Shown here one piece after another: positions 19,795-25,151 of a DNA stretch of 26,345 nucleotides. The translations under genes and the position numbers were made by a program. The DNA comes from a virus, in the IMG/VR virus record IMGVR_UViG_3300025818_000156, positions 1 to 26,345 of that record. The stretch is one strand, 5' to 3'. Position 1 is the stretch's first letter; each line of letters opens with the position of its first letter. A model generated the notes under the pieces. The model was given only the letters and a program-made list of their open reading frames with translations, was not told the origin of the DNA and searched no databases.

Positions 19795-19984
19795 GGACTT
19801 AGAAGTAATGGAAAACCTGTTAGTCGAATTGTTGGTGGCTGCACTCAGGGCACCCAACCATATCCGTGGTCCGATAACCGACCTAGCTGTTGGTATATCA
19901 AACCATCTACCAATAGAGGCAGTAGAACGCAGCAAAGAGTACGCTTTGTACAGGGCCAAGCAAGGAGAACGACATGGAGTTTGA
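19769..19984 (+). CDS. 71-residue hypothetical protein
   Basis: AGAAGGG precedes ATG 19769. The protein is helical, with a hydrophobic stretch (MENLLVELLVAALRAP) too broken for a clear membrane segment. The C-terminus contains AVERSKEYALYRAKQGERHG. The end overlaps the next gene by eleven bases, in line with the compact early block. I do not recognise it. Confidence 0.62.
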   Translation: MNIPKFQTEDLEVMENLLVELLVAALRAPNHIRGPITDLAVGISNHLPIEAVERSKEYALYRAKQGERHGV

Positions 19985-20534
19985 GGAACAAGTAGACAGT
20001 ATTTTGCGCGAAGCATACGACAACATCGTGCAAGAAGGATTAAAGCGCGAGCTTGATGACTTCAAAAAAGTGGAAGATTATTTAACATCTAATGGGTTGA
20101 TTGATGATTCGTCTACGGAAATCTGGTACATCAGCTTAAACGGTGAACCCAACATGGATATCGTCAACCCAGATGATGCCTCTGGTGAAGACCCAGAAAC
20201 TTTGGCTATTAAATACAAAGGAACTTACGGAGATTTCTATACTGCATTACAAGATTCAGAGATGATTCAACAATGTAAAGCAGATAAATGTGTGGGTATT
20301 ATTACTCGATCAGAAGCATGGGCATCCAAGACTGCAGCTGAACTGAAGAAGCAGGCGTCAGAATGTGATGACAAAATAACCATGCATCTTACAACCCTTA
20401 CTACACCGCGTGGCGTGCATGTCATCATCCGAAATGGTGATGAAGTGGACTGCTCAACCTATCCTAAATCTAAAATCAAAACAGGAGAGAATGAATTGAT
20501 TGACGCATTGGTTAATGCGTGCTTTCATTGGTGA
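19974..20534 (+). CDS. 186-residue hypothetical early protein
   Basis: AAGGAG precedes ATG 19974. The N-terminal 45 residues are acidic and helical. A mixed domain follows with WYISLNGEPNMDIV, ADKCVGIITRSEAWAS and PRGVHVIIRNGDEV. Four Cys are scattered. Neither nucleotide-binding nor nuclease motifs are seen. It is the last gene before the repeat-rich control region. I do not recognise the family. Confidence 0.7.
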   Translation: MEFEEQVDSILREAYDNIVQEGLKRELDDFKKVEDYLTSNGLIDDSSTEIWYISLNGEPNMDIVNPDDASGEDPETLAIKYKGTYGDFYTALQDSEMIQQCKADKCVGIITRSEAWASKTAAELKKQASECDDKITMHLTTLTTPRGVHVIIRNGDEVDCSTYPKSKIKTGENELIDALVNACFHW

Positions 20535-20537
20535 TCG

Positions 20538-20585
20538 CTACCGATAACGACCACTACCGATAACGACCACTACCGATAACGAAAT
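20538..20585 (+). repeat. three direct repeats of 16 bp, iteron-like
   Basis: The unit CTACCGATAACGACCA occurs at 20538-20553 and 20554-20569, with a third copy at 20570-20585 that differs only in the last three bases. The copies are adjacent without spacers. They start four bases after a stop codon and lie in a non-coding control region. They could be iterons for an initiator or operators for a regulator. Confidence 0.75.
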
Positions 20586-20590
20586 ACATT

Positions 20591-20640
20591 ACACGCGCTC
20601 GCGTGTGTGTGCGCACGGGCGCACGCACGCGCACGCGCGT
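20591..20640 (+). other. long CG/CA alternating tract with palindromes
   Basis: Fifty bases are almost entirely alternating purine-pyrimidine: 20591-20598, 20601-20616 and 20619-20640. ACACGCG (20591-20597) and CGCGTGT (20600-20606) form one perfect palindrome. GTGCGC (20609-20614) and GCGCAC (20619-20624) form another. The tract is strongly Z-DNA- or cruciform-prone. Confidence 0.7.
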
Positions 20641-20742: not shown

Positions 20743-20916
20743 ATGGATATAGAGCAAGTGTTACACGCCATTACACGAATACAGGCAGAGAGATTGGTTA
20801 AATCAACTAGAAGTTTTAATGATGAGTTGGTCTATAACCAAGTAGAACTGCCTTTAATTAAAGAGATTAAGCAAGCATTGGTAACAAGGTTTGAGAGTTT
20901 AGAACTCTCAAAGTAA
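20743..20916 (+). CDS. 57-residue hypothetical protein heading the AAA+/VWA module
   Basis: GGGAGATAACGCT precedes ATG 20743. An in-frame codon at 20605 would place the Z-DNA tract and promoter inside the gene and is rejected. The product is fully helical with charged faces (MDIEQVLHAITRIQAERLVK and KEIKQALVTRFESLELSK). It may be a small partner or regulator of the module. No family is recognised. Confidence 0.65.
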   Translation: MDIEQVLHAITRIQAERLVKSTRSFNDELVYNQVELPLIKEIKQALVTRFESLELSK

Positions 20917-20959
20917 TAAGCAATACAAACAACAACAACAAAACAAAAGGGAGAATAAA

Positions 20960-21706
20960 ATGCTAGAAGGACAGGAAGCAACACAAACTCAAGGCTTTAA
21001 TAGCCCTTGGGAGAGAGCAAGTTTTGCTCTTGAGAATAACTTAGGGCGAGTATTGCTCTATGGCGCACCAGGAACAGGTAAGACATACTTTGCTATGAAT
21101 TACCACACTAATCCTGATAACGCTTATCGGTTAGTTTGCACAGAAGAAATGACTGACGCAGACCTTATCGGTATGTATAAGCCAACAGTAGTTAATGGCT
21201 CTAAGGAACTTGTGTTCCACGAAGGCGTTGCTATTAAGGCTTGGCGAACAGGTGGTCGTTTGGTCGTTGATGAAATCAACAGAGTCAATGGCGATATTGA
21301 GAGTCGCCTTATGTCTCTTATCGACACTCACGCTAGTTCATCTTGGCAAAATCCTGATACGGGTGAAACGATTAAGCCTGCTCAAGGCTTTAGCGTTGTA
21401 GCCACTATGAACGGTGAGCCAGAAGACTTAGGGCGCGCTATCCAAGACCGTTTGGTTGTGCAGTTAGAGATAACTGAACCACACCCTGACGCTATTGCTA
21501 GTCTGCCTGAATACCTTAGGGACTTAGCGTTCTCTGTGGTATCAAGAACCACACAGTCAGACCGTTACTCGTTAAGAAACTTCGTGGAGTTTGCCCAACT
21601 TTACGCAAAGACTAACGACTTGCACAAGTCAGTTGATATCTGCTTACCCCGTATAGCAGAGCAAATCATTGACAGTATTAGTCTGCAAAAGGTAGAAGCA
21701 CAGTAA
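20960..21706 (+). CDS. MoxR/CobS-like AAA+ ATPase
   Basis: The 248-residue protein has Walker A GAPGTGKT (35-42), Walker B LVVDEIN (101-107), sensor 1 in VVATMN (146-151) and an Arg finger in IQDRL (161-165). This is the order in AAA_5 ATPases of the MoxR/CbbQ/CobS type. Those enzymes remodel protein partners using ATP and work with VWA-domain proteins; one such gene lies at 21894. GGGAG precedes ATG. The protein lacks the C-terminal lid extension of some relatives, so it is on the short side. Its target in this phage is unknown. Confidence 0.87.
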   Translation: MLEGQEATQTQGFNSPWERASFALENNLGRVLLYGAPGTGKTYFAMNYHTNPDNAYRLVCTEEMTDADLIGMYKPTVVNGSKELVFHEGVAIKAWRTGGRLVVDEINRVNGDIESRLMSLIDTHASSSWQNPDTGETIKPAQGFSVVATMNGEPEDLGRAIQDRLVVQLEITEPHPDAIASLPEYLRDLAFSVVSRTTQSDRYSLRNFVEFAQLYAKTNDLHKSVDICLPRIAEQIIDSISLQKVEAQ

Positions 21707-21897
21707 TGGAAGGCGACAAAATAACCTTGTGGATAGACCATTTCATAGTTATTGCTATGGTCTGTCTCTTTATCGGCTATCAAGTTGGTGCGTTTATACA
21801 CACTCTTGATGAACGACAGAGAGAACGAGAGAACCGTTATTGGGCTAAACGCAAGTCAATGCGTAATCACCCAACTTACAAAGGGAGAACACAATGA
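21706..21897 (+). CDS. 63-residue single-TM protein
   Basis: ATG 21706 overlaps the ATPase stop (TAATG) and its own TGA overlaps the VWA start (ATGA). One membrane segment lies at about 9-30 (WIDHFIVIAMVCLFIGYQVG), followed by a basic, charged tail (DERQRERENRYWAKRKSMR). Strict coupling between ATPase and VWA genes suggests it takes part in their work, perhaps anchoring the complex at the membrane. Confidence 0.75.
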   Translation: MEGDKITLWIDHFIVIAMVCLFIGYQVGAFIHTLDERQRERENRYWAKRKSMRNHPTYKGRTQ

Positions 21898-23225
21898 CAA
21901 CTAAGCACAACACCGTAGCCCCAGAAGCATTGGGGCAACGACCAGAGTTAGATCATAACCGTTACGAGTCAGGTGGTACACCATTGGACTTTGACGGGGT
22001 AAGCGTTAGTTTCGGAACACCCACTAAGCCACACACTTATCAAGCCCCTACGGGCGACGGTCTAACAAGCCGTCGCCTTAGGCGTTTTGCTTTGACGCTT
22101 AGTAGGTTTCAGTTACCTAATAGCAAGCAACTTGCAAAGCGTTGGAAAGTAAAGCCAAGCAGCGTTAAATACGCCGAGCAGATATTTGCTATCAACGCAT
22201 ACAAGCAAGCGTTTAACGACGACCCAACCATAGGCACTATGTCCGTTGATGTATTAGCAACAATGCTTAACGAACCAAGTCCCAATAGTGAGTTGTTTGC
22301 TAAAGCCATAAGTTATCTAAACACGGAAGCGTTTGATAATTTGATGGTAAAGATAAACAATCACCAACTCAGGGACTTGTTAGTTAATTACGAGAAACAC
22401 CTTAAGAGTTGTTATGGTGAAGGCAGTTGGCGTTGGCGAGAAACAAAAGACATTAACTCGCCGTCTGACTTACGCCGTCGCCGTGCTAGAACTTCTTATC
22501 GAGATTTGGCTAAGTTAATTGACCAACTCTCAATGGCAGGCGAGAAGCAGATTAAGGAGTTAGAGAAACGAGAGAAGCAACCAGGTGAGTTTTATGAGTT
22601 TGGCAAAGGCAAAGAATATACAGACGGTTCGGATAGGTGGTATCCGTTGTATGTTTCTAAGCCTGAGTTGCCATTAACTCATACAGGCAAACTCGGTAGA
22701 CGGCTTGTTTACACAGATACAGGCAGAGCGATTAAGAATATCGGTCGCTTGTTCTCTGACCCTGAAGAACGGATATTCACTCGCAAGACTAGAGCGTTAG
22801 GGGCAGTCGTTGTTATTGACTGTTCAGGCTCTATGTCGCTAGATGAGAGTGATATCGACGAGATGATTAAAGTCTCGGCAGGTGCTACGGTGCTTTGCTA
22901 CTCGTCAGACAATAGACCAAGCCACGATAACCCTAATGCTTATGTCGTTGCCCGTAAGGGTCGCAGGATACGCAAGTTGCCATACTTTCACGGTGGTAAC
23001 GGTTGCGATGCACCAGCGTTGATGTATGGCATTAAGGTTCTTAGAGAGAGTTCTCGTCAGCCAGTCATTTGGATTAGCGACGAGATGGTTACAGGCGTAG
23101 GAGATAGTGGTGGTATGTCTCTAAGAGAAGAAACGAACAGAATAAAACAGCGTTATGGCGTTATTGTTTGCCCTAATGCTTACTCAGCAATACAAACACT
23201 TAAAAAACTACAAGGAAAAGGGTAA
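21894..23225 (+). CDS. VWA-domain partner of the AAA+ ATPase (CobT/ViaA-like layout)
   Basis: The 443-residue protein has a basic N-terminal and central region of about 300 residues, with a helical RRRRART-type stretch near 195. A C-terminal von Willebrand A domain follows: DCSGSM (309-314) forms the MIDAS start, D372 in the NGCDAP segment and ISDEM (394-398) supply later metal-site positions. All key residues appear intact. In known pairs (CobS-CobT, RavA-ViaA, NorQ-NorD) this type binds the target and the ATPase remodels it. The N-terminal region matches no family I recognise. Confidence 0.83.
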   Translation: MTTKHNTVAPEALGQRPELDHNRYESGGTPLDFDGVSVSFGTPTKPHTYQAPTGDGLTSRRLRRFALTLSRFQLPNSKQLAKRWKVKPSSVKYAEQIFAINAYKQAFNDDPTIGTMSVDVLATMLNEPSPNSELFAKAISYLNTEAFDNLMVKINNHQLRDLLVNYEKHLKSCYGEGSWRWRETKDINSPSDLRRRRARTSYRDLAKLIDQLSMAGEKQIKELEKREKQPGEFYEFGKGKEYTDGSDRWYPLYVSKPELPLTHTGKLGRRLVYTDTGRAIKNIGRLFSDPEERIFTRKTRALGAVVVIDCSGSMSLDESDIDEMIKVSAGATVLCYSSDNRPSHDNPNAYVVARKGRRIRKLPYFHGGNGCDAPALMYGIKVLRESSRQPVIWISDEMVTGVGDSGGMSLREETNRIKQRYGVIVCPNAYSAIQTLKKLQGKG

Positions 23226-23406
23226 CTTAAATGGATTGTCGCACTAAAGAACAAGTCCAGCAAGAAACAATTTACTCCGTGATTAAATTACAACACGAAG
23301 TTAAAGCGTTGTTTCCTTGGAAAATATCATACAAAGATGATGAAGTAATCCTGAGTAATGACACAATTAAGTTAATAACTCAATACATAAAACAACTACA
23401 AGGAAA
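23206..23406 (+). repeat. duplicated gene-end segment carrying a ribosome site
   Basis: AACTACAAGGAAA occurs at 23206-23218 and 23394-23406. Each copy spans the end of a gene encoding LQGKG and supplies AAGGAAA for the next start. The flanking sequence is also similar over about 35 bases, so the 60-residue gene's 3' end looks derived from the VWA gene's end. Confidence 0.6.
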
Positions 23407-23413
23407 GGGATAG
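23231..23413 (+). CDS. 60-residue hypothetical protein
   Basis: AAGGAAAAGGG lies before ATG 23231. The helical product ends in ITQYIKQLQGKG, which resembles the VWA protein's own ending (IQTLKKLQGKG). The N-terminal half has TKEQVQQETIYSVIKLQHEV, also helical. No known domain is seen. It is probably part of the same transcript and module. Confidence 0.65.
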   Translation: MDCRTKEQVQQETIYSVIKLQHEVKALFPWKISYKDDEVILSNDTIKLITQYIKQLQGKG

Positions 23414-23417
23414 AACA

Positions 23418-24155
23418 ATGGAAAATCAAGACAATGAATTAATGGCAGAATTAGAAAACATAATCGCCACTGAGAGTAAGCGTATTGCCGAACCAACAGA
23501 CGCACAGTCTGAAGGCTTGGCGATATTTAAGAACCTGATAACTGCTATGGAAGAAGACAATCCACTCGTTGGGACTCAGGTATATTCAATCAGAGCCGTA
23601 GAGCCTGACGAAGCAAGGCAAGCACTAGCAGAAGGTGCAGGCAGGTTAGTCAGTAATGGGTTCAGCAAGGAAGAAAACGAAACAGCATCACACGCAGGAC
23701 GGGTAGAACTGATAGCAGATAGTGTGCCAGTCAGTAAAATCCGTCAGTTCTTGGGCGACCTAGAGACTGCGTTGGTGCTTAGCCAATGGAAAGAGCCACA
23801 AGGCTTACTTGCTAGGGCTAAGCGCAAAGGCGAGTTGGTTCAGGCTATGGCGTTGGGGAATGTCCTTATATTCCAAAAGGTCTTAGCAAGTGGCGACACT
23901 ATCACCAAGTCTTGGGACACCAACGACGAGATAGCACCAGAACCAGAAGAGTTTGATAACAAGTGGGACTTTGACTTCCTTAAGAACACTTACACACACT
24001 TAAATCTGCCCAATATGCTTAAAGCGCAAAGCCCAATTATGTATGAGCATATTCTCGATATGCTTAAGAAAAACATCGCCAAGCAAGTCCTTAACGGCGA
24101 GAGACCAGGGGACTTAGAAGGCGACTTCGGCGATGGGTCTAGTGATGATGACTGA
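23418..24155 (+). CDS. 245-residue uncharacterised protein of the AAA+/VWA module
   Basis: AAGGAAAGGG precedes ATG 23418. The protein is mostly helical: an acidic N-terminus (MAELENIIATESKRIAEPTD), a central region with AREALAEGAG-like helices and RQFLGDLETALVLSQW, then NKWDFDFLKNTYTHLNLPN and a very acidic end (DFGDGSSDDD). There is no signal or membrane segment and no catalytic motif. As the last large gene of the module it may be the client or adaptor handled by the ATPase and VWA proteins. That is inference from context. Confidence 0.72.
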   Translation: MENQDNELMAELENIIATESKRIAEPTDAQSEGLAIFKNLITAMEEDNPLVGTQVYSIRAVEPDEARQALAEGAGRLVSNGFSKEENETASHAGRVELIADSVPVSKIRQFLGDLETALVLSQWKEPQGLLARAKRKGELVQAMALGNVLIFQKVLASGDTITKSWDTNDEIAPEPEEFDNKWDFDFLKNTYTHLNLPNMLKAQSPIMYEHILDMLKKNIAKQVLNGERPGDLEGDFGDGSSDDD

Positions 24156-24196
24156 TTAAGTCTTAAACAAAAGGAAGGAAGGAGAGTTATGACATA

Positions 24197-24259
24197 GTGC
24201 ATAGGTTATTAACCCTAATAGTGTTTGTTGTGATTTGGTTAGTATCCACTGACCATTAG
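24197..24259 (+). CDS. possible 20-residue membrane peptide
   Basis: AAGGAGAG precedes an ATG at 24189 that is followed by one codon and TAG; GTG 24197 overlaps this stop (TAGTG). From GTG the frame encodes a short hydrophobic peptide (HRLLTLIVFVVIWLVSTDH) ending at TAG 24257-24259. Its hydrophobic core suits one membrane span. Reinitiation after the two-codon frame would be needed, so support is weak. Confidence 0.3.
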   Translation: MHRLLTLIVFVVIWLVSTDH

Positions 24260-24264
24260 GGTTA
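24210..24264 (+). other. inverted repeat around the micro-frame
   Basis: TAACCCTAAT (24210-24219) and ATTAGGGTTA (24255-24264) are perfectly complementary across 35 bases. The arms enclose most of the possible membrane-peptide frame and lie directly before a stronger hairpin. Confidence 0.55.
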
Positions 24265-24267
24265 CTA

Positions 24268-24307
24268 AGCCCCTTAGGGACTTTATCCCTTGTGTCCTTA
24301 AGGGGCT
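24268..24307 (+). terminator. strong hairpin, probable terminator without T tract
   Basis: AGCCCCTTAGGGAC (24268-24281) pairs with GTCCTTAAGGGGCT (24294-24307): 14 pairs with one G-U and a 12-base loop. No T-run follows, which is common for actinobacterial terminators. It could attenuate transcription between the 23418 gene and the gene at 24482. Confidence 0.65.
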
Positions 24308-24478
24308 ATACCCTACTGCTACCGCTACCAACAACGACTACGCTTAGCGTAACGAGTAACGGGTAAAGGCGTTGTGTGGGGCAATAATGCGATTTGTGCG
24401 GGGCGATTTGCAATCGGGTTGCGATGCTGATAGCGTGGTTTCCGTTGGCAATTCCGCCAACACTTAACAAGGGAGAAA
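24308..24478 (+). other. non-coding leader with palindromes before the ATT-start gene
   Basis: No gene is supported here. TACGCTTAGCGTA (24339-24351) is a perfect 13-base palindrome, a possible operator. GTTGGC (24444-24449) and GCCAAC (24456-24461) form a hairpin that ends eight bases before the ribosome site (AAGGGAG 24469-24475). Confidence 0.5.
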
Positions 24479-24481
24479 ATC

Positions 24482-24733
24482 ATTACTACTAACCAATACA
24501 AACTAGGCTCTTGGGGCATTATCTCAGGGTCTAAAAAAGATAAGACCGCCGTTTACGGCGTGAAGGTATGGAACGGGCAAGGAGTCGTTAAAAGCGGCGA
24601 AATTGTCAGAGTTCTAAATTGGAAGGGTCAGGAGTCGCTAGTCGCTATAGGCGCTCTTGTAAAGCCAGTCGCTGAGACTGTAGAGACTAAAGGCTATGGT
24701 CTCTACAAGTTAGCGACCAAGGCTAAGAAGTAA
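24482..24733 (+). CDS. 83-residue protein with apparent ATT start
   Basis: The frame is open from the stop at 24431 to TAA 24731-24733, but it contains no ATG, GTG or TTG near its beginning. A strong AAGGGAG (24469-24475) lies six bases before ATT 24482; ATC 24479 is the only other possibility. The next codons (ACT ACT AAC CAA) match the MTTN-like openings of neighbouring genes. The product, starting TTNQYKLGSWGIISGSKK and with later GVKVWNGQGVVKSGEIVRVL, looks like a small beta barrel with a Lys-rich end. ATT starts are rare and can limit expression; a base change or assembly error is also possible. Confidence 0.6.
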   Translation: MTTNQYKLGSWGIISGSKKDKTAVYGVKVWNGQGVVKSGEIVRVLNWKGQESLVAIGALVKPVAETVETKGYGLYKLATKAKK

Positions 24734-24741
24734 TTAGGCTC

Positions 24742-24785
24742 TAGGCTCGGTAAGCCCTTAGGCAACTAGGGGTCTGCCGAGCCTA
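24742..24785 (+). terminator. long hairpin with GCAA tetraloop, module terminator
   Basis: 24742-24761 pairs with 24766-24785 almost end to end, with one A-C mismatch and three G-U pairs, around the stable GCAA tetraloop (24762-24765). It starts eight bases after the stop of the 83-residue gene. No T tract follows; instead a C6-A-G7 palindrome lies at 24791-24804. This marks the end of the AAA+/VWA module. Confidence 0.75.
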
Positions 24786-25151
24786 CCCTACCCCCCAGGG
24801 GGGGTAATACCCGTCCTGTATATGTGTGGATTTGTTACATTTTCTGTGGTGAACGGCGCTAGTTTGTGTGTATACGATACACATACGCTGGTTAACTGTC
24901 ACGAATCGACCTAGACCTGTCAGCTCCCCCCACGGTTCGCATCCTTTATGGAGCAGGTCGCCGTAGCCAAGCTATTTAGCCGACACCTTAGTTGATGATG
25001 TATCGTTCATCACGTCGCTTCTCCCAGTCATGGGAGATCTACCCCAGTTACCTGGTGTTCAATGCCCCGCTCTGTGCGAATAGAGTACGGCCCGTGCGTT
25101 TAGTCGGTTGTGAGTGCTGCCACTCTAGCACCATGGTGTACACTTGACAAC
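24786..25151 (+). other. 366-base non-coding gap upstream of packaging-end genes
   Basis: No gene is supported. Seen here are the C6-A-G7 palindrome (24791-24804), TGTGTAT/ATACACA (24867-24883), TAGACCTGTC plus a C-run (24912-24929) that also occurs at 14068, TGATG...CATCA near 24993-25012, and TCTCCCA/TGGGAGA (25020-25037). I tested for a tRNA and found none. A packaging or cos-like site, an operator cluster or an RNA is possible before the terminase-region genes. Confidence 0.5.

Follow-up and report, generated by a model that had tools for sequence, protein, structure and literature searches.

New in this analysis is a tie, drawn from sequence comparison, between the previously unexplained N-terminal half of a freshwater phage's VWA protein and the HExxH metallopeptidase domain, from which this half probably descends with loss of its zinc ligands. 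The VWA gene adjoins an AAA+ ATPase gene in IMGVR_UViG_3300025818_000156, a 26-kb virus record analysed here over its full length of 26,345 nucleotides (the window), and in our preferred reading, given a probability of about one half, the phage AAA+ ring would work on a protein target through the VWA adaptor, remodelling rather than cutting it, with dedicated client or adaptor proteins assisting. Such AAA+/VWA pairs occur commonly in phages, and in tailed phages of bacteria their targets have only been proposed in the literature on them. The present system is small and testable, being compact and existing in versions with an intact or a dead peptidase that lend themselves to natural comparison, and its testability is increased by a partner gene following the VWA gene in virtually every contig.

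The AAA+/VWA pair and its genomic setting

The window has a G+C content of 46% and its genes include structural, RecE-like, WhiB and terminase genes, of which the WhiB gene points to an actinobacterial host for the phage. The ATPase, one-TM, VWA, 60-aa and 245-aa ORFs overlap or nearly so (Table 1), and all five are present where a preliminary description of positions 20743–24733 had placed them. Its further claim that they are served by a promoter region of their own found no support, since promoter-like sites in the region number 4 against 8.4 expected, while the closing hairpin is a real structure that, lacking a T-run, is only putatively a terminator. A membrane protein encoded between the two main genes had also been counted as part of the module. 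Of 80 contigs of the window's clade (clade I), 11, all close relatives, carry this one-TM gene, and in most relatives its gap is closed. Because related phages carry the ATPase/VWA pair without it, the membrane part of the module idea fails; the gene neighbourhood rules it out as the core of the machine, and it is not part of that core. Both the one-TM gene and the 60-aa gene are confined to close relatives and were added recently.

Table 1. Features of the window, with positions counted from its first letter.
Feature	Positions	Strand	Remarks
186-aa upstream member of the 186/151/245 superfamily	19974..20534	+	HHalign; outside 20743–24733
57-aa ORF	20743..20916	+	phmmer matches in the window's close relatives only
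MoxR/CobS-like AAA+ ATPase, 248 aa	20960..21706	+	Pfam and PHROG matches
63-aa one-TM protein, lineage-specific insertion	21706..21897	+	hydrophobic FIVIAMVCLFIGYQVGAFI; 11/80 contigs
VWA protein, 443 aa, whole gene	21894..23225	+	
VWA protein N-domain, about residues 1–235	21894..22598	+	HHalign to HExxH metallopeptidase domain
VWA protein linker and VWA domain	22599..23225	+	fold matches in PDB
60-aa ORF	23231..23413	+	shared with a single further contig (L034)
245-aa downstream member of the 186/151/245 superfamily	23418..24155	+	HHalign; acidic C-terminal tail SSDDD
Strong RNA hairpin after the 245-aa gene	24258..24318	+	-32.1 kcal/mol, z -5.3; no T-run

The ATPase matches Pfam AAA_5 (1e-18) and AAA_3 (above the cut-off) as well as PHROG_16448 (3e-72) and PHROG_249 (3e-20), the last being the phage 'porphyrin biosynthesis' CobS family, and among proteins of solved structure it is related to midasin modules, NorQ and CbbQ. 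Its catalytic residues (Walker A G35–T42, Walker B D104–E105, sensor-1 N151, Arg finger R164 and sensor-2 R206) are invariant across relatives, in agreement with the earlier view of its Walker A, Walker B and Arg finger as intact, and dN/dS for this protein is 0.03–0.10. With the ATPase, the VWA protein and HExxH relatives as queries, searches of viral contigs recovered 130 that hold both genes, and in every one of these the ATPase gene lies upstream of and adjoins the VWA gene, mostly within 30 nt.

The VWA protein belongs to PHROG_33218, where its function is given as unknown, and its AlphaFold2 model (mean pLDDT 92) contains a VWA domain at residues 299–443 (best PDB match Z 8.9), residues 242–442 matching NorD (9qhd_G, Z 7.3); in a viral structure library its neighbours are VWA and CobT-like phage proteins. 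A profile search of the family against PDB sequences gave chance-level matches only, and tblastn of the protein in annotated phages gave no match. The putative MIDAS is made up of D309-S311-S313, N369/D372 and D396. Its DCSGSM motif, earlier described as intact, is kept (as DxSGS) in full-length homologues, and D372 and D396 are invariant in the family alignment, but where the canonical DxSxS-T-D has a Thr in loop 2 this family has Asn369, so that metal binding is less certain. This Thr is inessential to the class of the pair, and both marks of MoxR-type AAA+/VWA pairs are found, namely an AAA_3/AAA_5-type AAA+ protein with intact Walker, sensor and Arg-finger residues and, encoded by the adjoining gene, a VWA partner with a DxSxS MIDAS. 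The VWA protein as a whole has a dN/dS of about 0.2. ATPase motifs, VWA fold and adjacency together bear out the proposal of a remodelling AAA+/VWA pair in a phage.

The N-terminal half of the VWA protein

In distant VWA homologues the N-terminal half contains the motif HEL[MIV]H and, after it, EExRxN. Profiles of this half, built separately for clade I and for the clade retaining HExxH, were aligned by HHalign with a probability of 92 and an E-value of 6e-7 over 204 columns, so that the profile comparison suggested in the preliminary description revealed homology to a metallopeptidase domain in which HExxH has apparently been lost. In the window's protein the HExxH aligns opposite F65-A66-L67-T68-L69 (FALTL) and the second zinc-site motif opposite A94-E-Q-I-F-A-I-N (AEQIFAIN); HExxH and the downstream Glu, both present in the sister clade, are missing, and none of the VWA proteins of the window's clade has HExxH. 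Similar motifs occur in named phages with AAA+/VWA pairs (HEALH in DSL-LC01, HETGH in Sixama gp115, HEVGH in S-SSM7, HEIGH in DLP6). The N-domain is modelled with a pLDDT over 90 in most of its length, and a fold search with the model of the whole VWA protein returned a list dominated by the VWA domain and hence uninformative on a zincin fold. Between the window and its nearest relatives dN/dS is about 0.2 for the N-domain and 0.10–0.14 for its core helices, so the domain has been kept by purifying selection. A dead peptidase domain maintained in this way may act as a binding or stator domain that holds the target, analogous to the role proposed for the NorD N-domain.

On the ATPase tree the HExxH loss is a clade-wide change amounting to about one event. 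Five contigs (L049, L050, L110, L204 and L223) that show no HExxH and gave no match to the 245 profile fall in between; by this order HExxH was lost first and the 245 family came to stand next to the pair afterwards. (L050 carries an 'Hx' label on this tree, which reflects a chance HEVKH close to the linker.) No contig was found to hold both HExxH and a 245-family gene when the 245 profile was used. The exclusion is incomplete, since the broader profile, 151, detects a superfamily copy in the HExxH contig L154, some 0.7 kb past its VWA gene, and others, further off, in L139 and L145. A repeated linkage of HExxH loss with 245-family gain was considered and rejected, and since the tree gives about one change of each, their mutual exclusion is not an independent correlation.

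The flanking superfamily and candidate targets

In 50 of 51 testable contigs a 245-family gene lies directly after the VWA gene; the exception, L041, has a split VWA frame and a 245-family copy is present there too. Iterated profiles also find a member ahead of the ATPase gene and, in a subset of contigs, one more lying between the ATPase and VWA genes. By HHalign the upstream, middle and downstream genes form one unnamed superfamily (probabilities of 99.3, 98.9 and 100%), the 186-aa upstream gene matching the downstream copies with a probability of 99.3 and an E-value of 9e-21. Among the 72 clade I contigs that could be tested, 62 have the upstream copy, and several of the others have a middle copy instead. 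The 186-aa gene, left out of the earlier module, belongs to the conserved unit; comparison of gene neighbourhoods in related phages thus upholds the pair with its 245-family gene, which stays after the VWA gene, and removes the TM gene, absent from most. Apart from its kinship to the 186/151 genes, which emerged from the profile search envisaged for it, the 245-aa protein has no match in Pfam, PHROG or NCBIfam; its model (pLDDT 88) retrieved no recognisable solved fold in a fold search (best PDB Z 4.7), and tblastn of the 245 and 151 proteins in annotated phages gave no match.

An acidic tail, defined as three or more D/E among the six C-terminal residues, terminates 38 of 42 downstream copies, 13 of 50 upstream copies and 6.8% of background ORFs. 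It is plausible that the tail of the downstream copy is a MIDAS ligand, and it could instead serve another partner. In the mechanism that we favour, a MoxR/CobST-type ring of the ATPase would drive the VWA adaptor, and the 245-aa protein, perhaps together with its 186-aa paralogue, would serve as a dedicated client or adaptor. The acidic C-terminal tail of the 245-aa protein may be gripped by the MIDAS, and ATP hydrolysis might then pull or twist it. The fuller evolutionary version is offered tentatively: this phage lineage may have converted an AAA+-coupled protease into a pure remodeller, with the dead domain retained for docking and a family of two to three copies presenting itself or its cargo to the MIDAS via the acidic tail. 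Virion assembly and a host complex are the candidates for the final target.

The pair sits slightly upstream of the terminase gene, as might suit a chaperone for the folding or assembly of a head or tail protein, a role that is compatible with the preferred reading and would name its target class. Such a role has been proposed for jumbo-phage MoxR-vWA-peptidase pairs of the same architecture (PMC7824862), and one in virion assembly is reported for the pair of Acidianus two-tailed virus. However, when 33 terminase-matched loci with at least 7 kb (7–9 kb) of upstream sequence were compared, 9 had ATPase, VWA and 245-family genes, 2 the pair alone and 22 none of these genes, and 12 of 16 larger contigs checked whole had no such ATPase. 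The module is therefore accessory in this lineage and the pair is not needed for the packaging lineage in general, and its cellular homologues lie in chromosomal surroundings, all of which leaves virion assembly a somewhat unlikely answer. A terminase search for isolated relatives gave remote T7-type terminases only, and published work on cultured and metagenomic freshwater actinophages does not mention the pair. Phages of 'Ca. Nanopelagicales' have been brought into culture (PMC10202952).

The same accessory distribution would suit a remodeller acting on a host complex in takeover or counter-defence, for which the 186/151/245 copies would be interchangeable specificity factors. This family is multi-copy and fast-evolving (dN/dS up to 0.32), and the neighbouring genes include WhiB and recombination genes; against this, the PADLOC defence models matched the window only in generic AAA P-loops, and no other defence or anti-defence model match was obtained. 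We regard host takeover as unlikely, and for the same reason the anti-phage or superinfection system suggested earlier is without specific support.

A pair of the same family with HExxH is found in Acidimicrobiia genomes (23 loci), the ATPase gene directly before the VWA gene. In most loci genes for LysM, nrdR, a PIG-L deacetylase and dinB follow, and several loci have a divergently oriented lexA upstream; the VWA protein is 35–44% identical to the HExxH clade query, and the 245 family was not detected in these loci. The proximity to nrdR is one argument for an auxiliary cobaltochelatase, in which phage CobS/CobT would join host CobN and raise cobalamin and hence ribonucleotide reduction, as already proposed for haloarchaeal tailed viruses (PMC8651126). 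The PHROG_249 match and the CobT-like structural neighbours also speak for it. Yet CobN was not found in any of 12 genomes with the closest cellular pair, each of which has the pair's VWA protein and in which a control was detected, and this absence argues against the role. Moreover, no CobT model matched at E 1 (PF06213 having no match in the window record), and the CobT-like relatives in viruses have a peptidase signature of their own, HExxH. A chelatase role thus appears quite improbable.

Comparison with known systems

The preliminary description had presented the function of the pair as a mystery. Its kind is already described, as phage cobST and MoxR-vWA (PMC8651126, PMC7824862). Phage MoxR-vWA pairs with an N-terminal metallopeptidase are known from group 2.2 jumbo phages (PMC7824862), and resemble the present pair in the adjoining AAA+ gene and in the position of an N-terminal domain within the VWA protein; HExxH is also found in the sister clade analysed here. 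Unlike these, the window's clade is devoid of HExxH, resides on contigs of about 38 kb and is flanked by the 186/151/245 family. The Acidimicrobiia chromosomal pair, although the same gene pair and family, differs in its intact HExxH, its fixed LysM-nrdR-PIG-L-dinB neighbours and the lack of a detectable 245 family.

A mechanistic precedent is NorQ/NorD, which serves FeB insertion into nitric oxide reductase (NOR) and where the ATPase is a sequence relative (5.7e-13), the VWA region matches and the layout of an N-domain followed by a C-terminal VWA domain recurs; there is, however, no NOR target here, and the MIDAS Thr is Asn in the phage protein. To our knowledge the NorD N-domain has no relation to a peptidase. 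The AAA+ ring of NorQD is plugged by the VWA protein, whose MIDAS is required for the target, and acidic residues of the target have been implicated; for the N-domain the proposed role is to give specificity or to keep hold of the target while the ring twists the VWA domain (PMC9976466, PMC13036017).

Viral cobST clusters, described in cyanophages and haloarchaeal viruses (PMC8651126), likewise consist of neighbouring AAA+ and VWA genes, with an ATPase core resembling CobS. They are set apart by the missing CobT model match, by the cellular carriers of the related pair being without CobN and by length, the VWA protein having 443 aa here and 609–809 aa in the viral CobT-like proteins compared. 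The 'peptidase' annotation of cyanophage cobT has been called mistaken (PMC8651126); HExxH motifs in viral CobT-like relatives suggest that it has a real sequence basis. The present system is also relevant to the question whether viral CobT is a subunit of a chelatase or an adaptor that descends from a peptidase. Set beside these systems, that of the window is a pair of an already known type, distinguished, as far as its sequence tells, by the loss of HExxH and by its 186/151/245 flanks.

Flanks of the module

The tandem repeat immediately 5' of the module is followed by a long C/G-rich tract of alternating purines and pyrimidines. Downstream of the 245-aa gene, an open reading frame lacks ATG, GTG and TTG codons for initiation. 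Its homologue in contig L033 (44%) begins with ATG; either a non-canonical start is used here or the original start has been lost. A second strong hairpin then precedes the terminase-side genes.

Coordinates of features in the window and in compared contigs
Feature	Position	Detail
Short tandem repeat, then C/G-rich tract	20530-20640	repeat: accgataacgaccact
Open reading frame	24482-24733	83 codons; start ATC/ATT
Second hairpin	24730-24815	z -4.5
VWA gene, apparently split by a frameshift	L041:6701-8087	possibly an assembly error
AAA-ATPase region, Microbacterium phage Big4	L012:5653-10075	rIIA-like and rIIB-like genes

Age of the flanking protein superfamily

Members of the 186/151/245 superfamily, which flanks the pair in the window, also occur near the pair or some kilobases away in a few contigs of the sister HExxH clade (L145, L139, L154) and in L110, outside it, and the superfamily thus probably predates its association with the module.

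Related ATPases and the chromosomal pair

In Big4, the rIIA-like and rIIB-like genes lie directly 3' of the related ATPase, where a VWA gene would otherwise be. In Acidimicrobiia genomes (L168-L188) the AAA+/HExxH-VWA pair sits on the chromosome in a conserved cluster that also holds LysM, nrdR, PIG-L and dinB genes and often a divergent lexA; CobN was undetected in all 12 pair-bearing genomes searched. The SOS response or ribonucleotide reduction is possibly what this cluster is linked to.
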